Of a DNA stretch of 64,000 nucleotides, positions 1,690 to 10,993 are shown in pieces (position 1 is the stretch's first letter; each line of letters opens with the position of its first letter). The DNA lies in assembly GCA_902768975.1 (NCBI GenBank), contig CACXMZ010000005.1, forward strand, positions 186,001-250,000. Reading direction: 5' to 3'. The notes below the pieces were generated by a model, which worked only from the letters and a program-made list of their open reading frames with translations, ran no database searches and was not told the origin of the DNA. The translations under genes and the position numbers were made by a program. This DNA is from an uncultured Coriobacteriaceae bacterium. Lineage in GTDB: Bacteria > Actinomycetota > Coriobacteriia > Coriobacteriales > Eggerthellaceae.

Positions 1690-2949
1690 TTATTTATAGT
1701 CGGCGGGATTTTTCGACGAAGACCCAGTGAGGTTTTCTAAGGTACGCATTTCGCTGCCAAGTACTACAGCTCCTTCACCAAATCGCTGGCGTATGGCGTC
1801 GGTCGCATGGCTCAGTTGCTTCTTTTGTTCGCGATTATGACCTTCTTCTTCGGACGTGGTATTGCCAAATAAGCTTAATTGACCCTCTGCTGAGTCGGTC
1901 AAATGGATAGCTGCTGCACCCACCAGCCGCAGGGGCATACCTTCAATCCATAGTTCGTCGAGTAAAACATTGAGCCGCGGGATAAAGTCATATTCGCTGT
2001 CACTCGCTTCATCGAGACTCGCGGTAGCAGTCTTTGCCTTCATGTCGGCATATTTGATCTTAAGGACAATGCCACGAGCAAAGCAGTCCTTCATACGAAG
2101 TCTGCGCGCAACCTTAGAAGCCACCGTTACAATAGCTGCTTCAATATCTTTGCGTTCAGTAAGGTCTTCTGCAAAACTCATCTCATTTGAAATTGATTTG
2201 ATTTCGTCTTCTGTGGTGACGGGGTCGGTGTCGGCGCCCAGACAACGTGCACGCATCATTTCCGCATTTTTACCAAATACTTTTTCAAGAATAATACTTT
2301 CCGCTTCGGCTACTTCACCCAAGGTACTAATGCCAAACTTCTTAAGCATCTCCTGGGCTACCGGGCCAATGCCGCTCATCACCTTGGTGGGCAAAGGGGC
2401 AAGAAACGCACGCTCACGCCCTGGGTACACCACCGTCAGGCCCTGGGGCTTGTCCATGTCAGATGCCACCTTGGCAACCGACTTTGAAACACCGAGCCCA
2501 ATGGATGCCGTCACGCCAAGTTTGGCAACTTCTGCCTGGATGCTTCGCGCAATTTCAACAGGGTCTTCACTGATATAGCGCGTGGGGCTAATGTCAAGAA
2601 AGGCTTCGTCAATGCTTACTTGCTGGAGTAGGGGGCTTTTTGAACGCATAATGTCCATGACCTGCTTCGATACTTCGCTATATCGGTGGTAATGCCCATG
2701 GGTCCAAATGGCGTCGGGGCATAATTTAGCAGCAGTTGAAGCTGGCATGGCGCTCCGAACACCATAGGCCCGCGCTTCGTACGAACAGGTTGAAACCACG
2801 CCGCGTTTGTCCGCTGAGCCACCCACAATAATGGGCTTTCCGCGCCACGCAGGGTGGTCGAGCTGTTCAACTGAAGCGAAAAATGCATCTAGATCTAGCA
2901 AAAGAATTGCTCGACCCTTCCAGCTTTCTTTGTCTGTAACAATTTCCAT
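1690..2949 (-). CDS. dinB: DNA polymerase IV (Y family, error-prone)
   Basis: A 419-residue translesion polymerase. The catalytic core is visible: LLLDLDAFFASVEQ with the first metal aspartate and steric-gate region, SYEARAYGVRSAMP, and the SIDEAFLDIS motif with the second acidic pair. A helix-hairpin-helix/thumb region follows (PTKVMSGIGPVAQEMLKKFGI), then a little-finger domain. The C-terminal tail of about 60 residues is polar and poorly conserved; no clear beta-clamp motif stands out. Its 146-bp upstream gap, shared with the divergent aminotransferase-like gene, contains no GAAC-N4-GTTC site, so SOS control is not supported by the sequence, unlike lexA and recA in this window. Confidence 0.93.
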   Translation of the reverse strand: MEIVTDKESWKGRAILLLDLDAFFASVEQLDHPAWRGKPIIVGGSADKRGVVSTCSYEARAYGVRSAMPASTAAKLCPDAIWTHGHYHRYSEVSKQVMDIMRSKSPLLQQVSIDEAFLDISPTRYISEDPVEIARSIQAEVAKLGVTASIGLGVSKSVAKVASDMDKPQGLTVVYPGRERAFLAPLPTKVMSGIGPVAQEMLKKFGISTLGEVAEAESIILEKVFGKNAEMMRARCLGADTDPVTTEDEIKSISNEMSFAEDLTERKDIEAAIVTVASKVARRLRMKDCFARGIVLKIKYADMKAKTATASLDEASDSEYDFIPRLNVLLDELWIEGMPLRLVGAAAIHLTDSAEGQLSLFGNTTSEEEGHNREQKKQLSHATDAIRQRFGEGAVVLGSEMRTLENLTGSSSKNPADYK

Positions 2950-3095
2950 AAAAAATAGTCTATCACCCCCTTGCCCAAAACGTTCATTGTGTTAGCATGG
3001 GTAACCCGCATCAAGTGCTCTTACATGCTTCTCTATTCGAATCTGATGCGTTTTACCAAACTTAAACGCAGCCACATTCAGCACGGGGAGGTGTA

Positions 3096-4223
3096 ATGGC
3101 TTCGCTTTTCAATATACAGTCGAATCTACGTGAAGCCGCACGCGCTTTGCCCGACAAGCCTGTTGCCATGCCCTACGACATGCGCAGCGAAGTAAGCTGG
3201 ATTGACTTTACCAATCACACCAATCCGCTTGGAACACCTAAGCCCATCGTGCAAGAAATACATACGGCCCTGGTCGACGGTGAGCACTGTTATATTCCCG
3301 ATCACGACGGCCGTTCCTTCCGTCATTCTATTGGCAACTACCTGGGTCTTGCCGCTGAAAACATTTTGCTCGGTACTTCGGTTTCGCAGCTTATTACCTA
3401 TGCGGCTTGCGCCTTCGACTATACGACGGTTGGCGTGAGCGAACCGTGCCCCTTGTCGTACGAAACGGCTATTGGCAATGCGGGGCACAGTATTCTCCCA
3501 TTGCAAAACCCCATTTCATTTGCCCCGGTAGACGCCCACCATGCCTTTTTGCAGGGTAACTTTAAGGGTCTGGTCCTGGGCAACCCTACCTATCCCACAT
3601 CACGCCTAATCCCCAAACCACAATTAAAGCAATACCTTGAAACCCTGGACTGGCTTATCGTCGATGAAAGCAATATCGAGCTCACCATCGGGGGTGAAAG
3701 TGCTGTTGGGCTCGTAGAGTCGTATCCTAATCTCATTGTTATAAGAAGCGCTTCGACCACCTATGGCATGCCTGGTATTCCCATCTGCTACATGGTTGCC
3801 CACCATGAAATGATTTCCCATATTGAACAATTCTATGCTGGCAGCGATATTGGCATGTTTGGCGAAGTACTTGCCTACCAGCTAGTATCTCAGAATATAT
3901 ATTTAGACGAAACGCATGACTTTCTGGAAAACGAAATCCCTTGGATGCAATGCCATCTCAGCTTGCTTCCTGGCGTAAATATCTTCCCGGCTGAAGCCAA
4001 CTTCGTCCTCTGCGAATTTAACCCTTCACCTGAAATGGAATTAGGTGTGGGCAGCGTGCAAGAATTGGTAACGAACCTCCAGCTTGCAGGCTTCCTGGTT
4101 GACGACTTGCACGACACGCCAGGCCTTCCGCACAATAATTTCTTCTGCGTAGCCGTACGCTTACGCGAAGAAAACGAGCGCCTGCTTTCTGCCATGCGCT
4201 CGATAATTAAATCCTTCGATTAA
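3096..4223 (+). CDS. Aminotransferase-fold protein (HisC/CobD-like) lacking the PLP lysine
   Basis: A 375-residue protein with the overall layout of fold-type I aminotransferases of the histidinol-phosphate aminotransferase / threonine-phosphate decarboxylase group: NHTNPLGTP near the N-terminus, VLGNPTYPTSRL, IVDESNIEL, NLIVIRSASTTYGMPGI and a C-terminal VAVRLREENERLL arginine. Key cofactor residues are changed. The usual SK or TK lysine that binds PLP is Thr (RSAST-T-YGMPG), the Asn of NNPTG is Tyr, the Tyr of DEAY is Asn, and the second Arg after the lysine loop is Pro. The cofactor aspartate (DES) remains. GGGGAGG precedes the ATG. It is either a non-catalytic homologue with a new role or a decaying enzyme; the intact 375-codon frame favours the former. 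Confidence 0.75.
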   Translation: MASLFNIQSNLREAARALPDKPVAMPYDMRSEVSWIDFTNHTNPLGTPKPIVQEIHTALVDGEHCYIPDHDGRSFRHSIGNYLGLAAENILLGTSVSQLITYAACAFDYTTVGVSEPCPLSYETAIGNAGHSILPLQNPISFAPVDAHHAFLQGNFKGLVLGNPTYPTSRLIPKPQLKQYLETLDWLIVDESNIELTIGGESAVGLVESYPNLIVIRSASTTYGMPGIPICYMVAHHEMISHIEQFYAGSDIGMFGEVLAYQLVSQNIYLDETHDFLENEIPWMQCHLSLLPGVNIFPAEANFVLCEFNPSPEMELGVGSVQELVTNLQLAGFLVDDLHDTPGLPHNNFFCVAVRLREENERLLSAMRSIIKSFD

Positions 4224-4237
4224 TGTAAAGCTGAATC

Positions 4238-5122
4238 TTAGTCGCGCGACTCGGCCCAATAAAAGACCGACATGGTACCCGGGCCAGAATGTGAACCGAT
4301 AACGGGGTCGAGCTGGTTAACAATGATTTCGCAGTCTGCAAAGGTGGCGTCGCCCTGTATGAGTTCAACAAGAACCTGGGCATCTTCAATGCAGTCGCCA
4401 TGACTAATACCAATATAGTGCGGCTCTATGCTTGGTTCGTATGTTTTCTTCAGATGGTCGAACAAGGCCTGGATTGAATGCTTACGCCCACGCACTTTTT
4501 CCATAGGAATAAGGCGGCCTTCATTGCTTACTTGCAGTATGGGCTTAATAGATAAAATGTTTCCCGCTGTTGCGCTTGTGCGCGAAACGCGCCCGCCGCG
4601 GTATAAATAAACGAGGTCGTCAACGGTAAACCACGACCCAACATTGAAGCGCTTTTCCACGATACTGGCATGAACTTCTTCAATGCTCTTGCCCAAACTG
4701 CGAAGGTGGGCTGCGTGCAGGACTAAGAGCCCTTCACCAAGGGCTGCTGCGCAGGTGTCGATGTAGTAAGCCTTGCGTTCGGGGTATTCCTTCAAGAGGT
4801 CGACAAGAATGCTTTCGGTCGATTCGTAGGTACCCGAAAGGGCACTTGAAAAGCCAACGTAAAGAATATCTTCGCCAGCCTCAAAAAGACTGCGAATAGT
4901 GTCGATTGACGTATTTTGGTAGGGGAGGCTGGTGGTATAAACAACACCCTTGCGCATATTTTCGTAGAAAGCCTTAAGGTCGGTCGGGGAAGCAGGGTCG
5001 TATGCGGGGTATTCTTCTTCACCGCTCATATATCGCAGGGGCAAAATAACCAGACCTAATTCATCAATGATGTGGTCTGGCAAATTGCAGCTCGAGTCAG
5101 TGAGGATAGTGAAATTAGCCAT
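4238..5122 (-). CDS. DegV family fatty-acid-binding protein
   Basis: A 294-residue DegV protein, a two-domain family that binds a fatty acid and, where studied, hands it to the FakA kinase. The sequence begins with ILTDSSCNLP and continues with TTSLPYQNT, the VGFSSALSGTYEST phosphate/lipid-head loop, IDTCAAALGEGLLV, and FTVDDLVYLYRGGRVSRTSATAG, all family hallmarks. Its length is normal (about 280-295). It is divergent from ileS across an 83-bp gap in which a minus-strand TATACT lies at 5150-5155 as a possible -10 box. No fakA homologue is in the window, so the partner must be elsewhere. Confidence 0.9.
   Translation of the reverse strand: MANFTILTDSSCNLPDHIIDELGLVILPLRYMSGEEEYPAYDPASPTDLKAFYENMRKGVVYTTSLPYQNTSIDTIRSLFEAGEDILYVGFSSALSGTYESTESILVDLLKEYPERKAYYIDTCAAALGEGLLVLHAAHLRSLGKSIEEVHASIVEKRFNVGSWFTVDDLVYLYRGGRVSRTSATAGNILSIKPILQVSNEGRLIPMEKVRGRKHSIQALFDHLKKTYEPSIEPHYIGISHGDCIEDAQVLVELIQGDATFADCEIIVNQLDPVIGSHSGPGTMSVFYWAESRD

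Positions 5123-10917: not shown

Positions 10918-10993
<76 letters not shown>

Follow-up and report, generated by a model that had tools for sequence, protein, structure and literature searches.

A CobD-like protein of the Eggerthellaceae that lacks the PLP lysine and is kept by strong purifying selection

The gene at positions 3096 to 4223 of the window, by which we mean the whole stretch of 64,000 nucleotides that was analysed, encodes a CobD-like protein that is functional as judged by selection, old, and free of the PLP lysine throughout its Eggerthellaceae members. Having lost the lysine along with almost every other contact to the B6 cofactor, the protein must do something other than normal B6 chemistry. 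We consider it fairly probable that it is a PLP-free pseudoenzyme: on a CobD-type scaffold of fold type I, the cofactor site would have been dismantled a single time, ahead of the radiation of the Eggerthellaceae, and strong selection has maintained the protein since. No papers on this protein family were found in the open-licence literature.

The gene and its upstream signals

The genome holding the window has a size of 1.89 Mb. A preliminary description of this DNA had proposed that the frame is full-length and preceded by a good ribosome-binding site, and both were located as follows:

2988..2998, + strand: extended -10 promoter-like element TGTGTTAGCAT; the strict pattern, picked after viewing the regions, is present in 39 of the 62 upstream regions, where 0.01 would be expected
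3085..3091, + strand: ribosome-binding site GGGGAGG, read directly from the sequence
3096..4223, + strand: gene for the lysine-less CobD-like protein; full-length open reading frame with an ATG start, 375 aa; PF00155 at 47.4 bits; 63 orthologues; dN/dS 0.019

A defence-system search returned 0 matches, and the only RNA family with a match was tRNA (10918-10991 of the window).

Loss of the cofactor site

The contacts made by class I enzymes with PLP are listed in PMC9309667. The segment RSASTTYGMPG of the window protein aligns with RTxSKxxGxAG of HisC/CobD, and the residues of the cofactor site were tallied in 26 CobD/HisC paralogues versus the 63 orthologues:

3294..3296, + strand: Ile67, position of the cross-subunit Tyr of YPD (Tyr in 26/26 paralogues, none seen in members)
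3378..3380, + strand: Ser95, position of the phosphate-loop Gly (Gly in 26/26 paralogues, 0 members; Thr 34, Ser 27, Ala 1)
3450..3452, + strand: Pro119, position of the ring-stacking aromatic (Phe/Tyr in 26/26 paralogues; Pro in 53/63 members, aromatic in 0/63)
3591..3593, + strand: Tyr166, position of the Asn of NNPTG that contacts PLP O3' (Asn in 26/26 paralogues, 0/63 members; aromatic in 61/63)
3663..3665, + strand: Asp190, position of the Asp at the PLP pyridine N1 (26/26 paralogues, 63/63 members); the sole contact fully kept
3672..3674, + strand: Asn193, position of the Tyr of DEAY at PLP O3' (Tyr/Phe in 26/26 paralogues, 9/63 members)
3756..3758, + strand: Thr221, position of the Schiff-base lysine (Lys in 25/26 paralogues, 0/63 members)
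3780..3782, + strand: Pro229, position of the PLP-phosphate Arg of LRxGY (Arg in 26/26 paralogues, 0/63 members; Pro 53, His 9, Asn 1)

The family thus lacks the Schiff-base lysine and nearly all of the other PLP-binding residues of PLP-dependent fold-type-I enzymes. The preliminary description had placed Thr opposite the lysine, Tyr at the Asn of NNPTG, Asn at the Tyr of DEAY and Pro at the phosphate-binding Arg. All four substitutions are present in the window protein, and three of them mark a loss that extends to every orthologue. The exception is the Tyr of DEAY, the loss of which is not family-wide because 9 of the 63 orthologues retain Tyr or Phe. Ile67, Ser95 and Pro119 represent further lost contacts that had not been listed before.

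Position 221 belongs to the most variable columns of the family alignment, ranking 328 of 375 by entropy, and is occupied by E in 32 members, T in 7, V in 7, A in 4, H in 3, D in 3, S in 2, N in 2, I in 2 and M in 1. This variability indicates that no replacement residue has been selected there, and a special role for Thr, which is present in only 7 of the 63 orthologues, is not supported. Read from the alignment, the conserved feature at this position is the absence of lysine, and the Thr itself carries no message. The preliminary description had also raised the possibilities that close relatives might still possess the lysine or that another lysine might fill the pocket. Neither was observed: the orthologues with the lysine number 0 of 63, none of the 63 rows contains a lysine at 216-226, and there is no conserved lysine column elsewhere in the alignment, the most lysine-rich column reaching 59%. 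A lysine filling in from elsewhere was therefore rejected. The finding that 61/63 members have an aromatic residue at position 166 and 62/63 have Pro or His at position 229 suggests that the site formerly holding PLP has been filled and remodelled.

Family assignment and predicted fold

The protein belongs to the aminotransferase superfamily by its match to Pfam Aminotran_1_2 (PF00155; 47.4 bits versus a cut-off of 19.7). This domain was matched in all 27 scanned members, none of which contained any other Pfam domain or a known catalytic motif other than Aminotran_1_2. The best NCBIfam models were CobD (TIGR01140; 134.7 bits, cut-off 290.55) and HisC (TIGR01141; 98.2 bits, cut-off 276.55), so that the scores lie far below the level at which either equivalog would be assigned. 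The CobD and HisC sequences of the PDB align along the whole protein with Thr standing opposite their lysine, and the best PDB profile match is CobD (E 1.9e-39). CobD, the L-threonine-O-3-phosphate decarboxylase of the vitamin-B12 pathway (PDB 1lc5, 1lc7, 1lc8 and 1lkc), is the closest known protein by both profile and fold, and in the tree the family branches with CobD-like proteins. However, the family is without the Schiff-base Lys, the Asn of NNPTG, the phosphate Arg, the stacking aromatic and the N-terminal HGG of CobD, the latter being present in all 7 aligned CobD-like paralogues and in 0 members. The C-terminal PGL...YFCVAVR of the window protein resembles the corresponding part of CobD (PGL...VAxR). 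With HisC, the histidinol-phosphate aminotransferase, the fold is shared and the alignment is full-length, but the family lies outside the HisC clade and has lost the cofactor site.

The AlphaFold2 model of the window protein, for which the input consisted of this protein, two orthologues and 29 mostly lysine-bearing HisC-like proteins from viral contigs, had a pLDDT of 80.9 and a pTM of 0.81. An earlier model from 3 sequences only was unusable (pLDDT 38); the viral homologues were included to add depth, and a scan with a HisC alignment found none. The top structural match of the predicted model was Salmonella CobD (Z 39.1, 2.2 A over 335 residues), and Foldseek concurred. On the strength of this match the fold is predicted to be intact, and the model is used for the overall fold only. 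A regulator of the MocR/GabR type was considered and rejected, because PF00155 stands alone in 27/27 scanned members and only about 35 residues precede the fold in the 375 aa, leaving the protein without a fused N-terminal DNA-binding domain.

Several relatives encountered in these searches deserve mention. HisC/CobD-like proteins are encoded in 46 viral contigs (L196-L241), with the lysine mostly present in the aligned rows. The closest paralogue of the window protein (30%) is a lysine-bearing CobD/HisC-like protein in a 766-aa open frame (L110, G130:C7:4843-6847), which may be a fusion. In genus g44, a CobD paralogue found at L192 (G119:C40) and L194 (G113:C3:4649-14620) has Ala at the lysine position (SFTAPFAMAG and SFTASYAMAG) but has NNPTG and the phosphate Arg intact; a lysine-bearing CobD (L191 and L193) is encoded in these genomes as well. 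Here the PLP lysine was lost a second time, independently.

Distribution and origin

Within the Eggerthellaceae, orthologues were found in 63 of 138 genomes and in 23 of 48 sampled genera at a threshold of E < 1e-60, after which the matches drop to ordinary paralogues with E values of about 1e-24 at best. A contig of a red-deer Eggerthellaceae MAG holds a 97% identical copy. Samples taken at the order, class and phylum levels revealed no other bacterial family with the gene. Members scored between 482 and 616 bits with the family HMM and everything else scored 181 bits or less, the two top-scoring non-members being CobD-like proteins with the lysine. In a maximum-likelihood tree, all tested members form one clade with a support of 100/100 and a stem length of 1.94. 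This clade nests in a moderately supported (82/91) CobD-like group, apart from HisC.

A tree of DinB placed gene-bearing genomes to either side of the midpoint root; the starred branches force at least 4 changes of state; this spread fits an ancestral gene followed by several losses, with a root that is not fixed. Lineages without the gene show empty dinB-degV sites in an unchanged gene order (about 130 bp in L130, 35 bp in L140 and 8 bp in L139). The gene therefore appears to be ancestral to the Eggerthellaceae and to have been lost cleanly in some lineages. As about half of the sampled genomes of the family are without it, its role is not universal.

Selection on the gene

The view of the preliminary description that this is not simply a broken gene is borne out by the selection test that was run. 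Comparison with a 97% relative gave a dN of 0.020, a dS of 1.065 and a dN/dS of 0.019 (Nei-Gojobori), with dS being near saturation. This ratio of about 0.02 amounts to strong constraint and is the lowest among seven neighbouring genes (DinB 0.038, GT2 0.031, IleS 0.039, RluD 0.037, LspA 0.059, DegV 0.064). Across the 63 orthologue matches, 0 internal stop codons were found. The gene is kept by strong purifying selection and is not decaying.

Gene neighbourhood

The gene is flanked by the following genes:

1690..2949, - strand: dinB (DNA polymerase IV), head-to-head neighbour with IMS and IMS_C domains; upstream in 57/61 loci
4238..5122, - strand: DegV-family gene (PF02645), the other border of the empty site in relatives

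A functional link to DinB was rejected, because genes with DinB domains are present in all 138 genomes of the family, including many without our gene, and because G019 and genus g38 keep the gene with no dinB next to it. We attribute the adjacency to inheritance of the gene order and do not claim dinB as a partner. No constant operon partner was found across the loci compared. Between the window and the closest relative, the DegV-family gene shows only 73% identity, against 88-97% for the neighbours, and is possibly a replaced or fast-evolving copy.

Interpretation

We propose that the cofactor site of a CobD-type ancestor was dismantled once, before the radiation of the Eggerthellaceae. As judged from the aligned residues, the aromatic at position 166 and Pro229 would take the place of PLP, and the protein would work by binding and not by aldimine chemistry. 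It may be a sensor, a regulatory or a scaffold protein, the putative working surface or pocket of which would be marked by residues that are newly conserved in the family:

3486..3488, + strand: His131, conserved only in this family (His in 60/63 members, 0 paralogues)
3603..3605, + strand: Arg170, invariant in the family (63/63 members, 7/26 paralogues)
3933..3950, + strand: EIPWMQ motif, residues 280-285, family signature (Trp283 in 63/63, Gln285 in 62/63; variable in paralogues)
3993..3995, + strand: Glu300, conserved in the family (62/63 members; variable in paralogues)

Asp190, Glu191, Arg170 and Trp283 are invariant across the 63 members, and Arg355 is retained in 56 of them. A binding or regulatory role is probably the best description of the function. 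The reading as a pseudoenzyme draws on the complete loss of Lys, Asn166, Arg229 and the aromatic at 119 (each 0/63 versus 25-26/26 in paralogues) with the Asp kept, on the dN/dS of 0.019, the single 100/100 clade, the upstream promoter-like element and the CobD fold match, and on precedents for lysine-less, non-catalytic proteins of fold type I. One of these is SPT1/LCB1, the non-catalytic subunit of serine palmitoyltransferase, which lacks the PLP lysine and is kept by selection (PMC6148460). The other is Rv3778c of Mycobacterium tuberculosis, a relative of PLP enzymes without the conserved lysine that was judged likely to be non-catalytic; it was described as a distant relative of cysteine desulfurases and selenocysteine lyases, not of CobD (PMC12910592). 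A point against this reading is that Asp190 and Arg355, both retained, might still take part in ligand binding or in a reaction. More tentatively, the CobD scaffold may have been converted once, in the ancestor of the Eggerthellaceae, to a cofactor-free protein with a new activity, be it PLP-independent catalysis or small-molecule sensing, that is marked by His131, Arg170, EIPWxQ and Glu300.

PLP-independent activity is possible and constitutes the main rival to a pseudoenzyme. In the form of a new enzyme on the CobD scaffold, with the old pocket (Asp190, Arg170, His131, Arg355, Glu300) acting on a phosphorylated or carboxylated small molecule, we regard it as rather unlikely. The conservation of His131, Arg170, Gln285 and Glu300 in this family alone, the retention of Asp190 and Arg355 and the strong selection are consistent with such an enzyme, but Aminotran_1_2 was the sole match and brought no known catalytic motif with it.

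Less likely still is a non-catalytic subunit that, like SPT1, completes or stabilises the active site of a lysine-bearing PLP partner across the dimer interface. The fold does dimerise with the active site at the interface, and SPT1, itself without the lysine, is needed for the activity and stability of SPT2 (PMC6148460). However, SPT1 works only with the lysine-bearing SPT2, whereas most member genomes have no clear CobD, and G045, a genome in one contig rated 99% complete, keeps the gene although no HisC or CobD passed the threshold used there; the five top class I/II aminotransferase matches of this genome are of other kinds. It is therefore unlikely that a HisC or CobD partner is obligatory for the family, and another PLP enzyme may act as the partner. 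Moreover, no PLP-enzyme gene is a constant neighbour across the loci compared, and the cross-subunit Tyr that would serve the partner's PLP is lost.

It is very improbable that the protein uses PLP or PMP without a lysine, as ColD/E1 do. These are PMP-dependent dehydratases in which His replaces the lysine and the other cofactor contacts are kept. Asp190, the partner of the pyridine nitrogen, is present in 63/63 members and could hold the cofactor together with other contacts, but the phosphate Arg, the phosphate-loop Gly, the stacking aromatic, Asn166 and the cross-subunit Tyr are all gone, and His occupies the lysine position in just 3 of the 63 members. Lastly, a gene drifting after loss of function can be dismissed: several lineages have lost the gene and can thus do without it, but decay is refuted by the selection evidence (dN/dS of about 0.02, no internal stops in 63 matches), and the family-wide age, the many invariant residues and the conserved promoter-like element also speak against it.

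Since the protein exceeds the Pfam cut-off for aminotransferases, automatic annotation is likely to label it a PLP enzyme, and the metabolism reconstructed on that basis would be misleading for at least 63 Eggerthellaceae genomes. The constraint on the gene, which in the closest species pair is stronger than that on housekeeping neighbours such as ileS, indicates an unrecognised function under selection. As a populous, lysine-less family of fold type I with a single origin, these proteins represent a clean test case for the reuse of a scaffold after cofactor loss.
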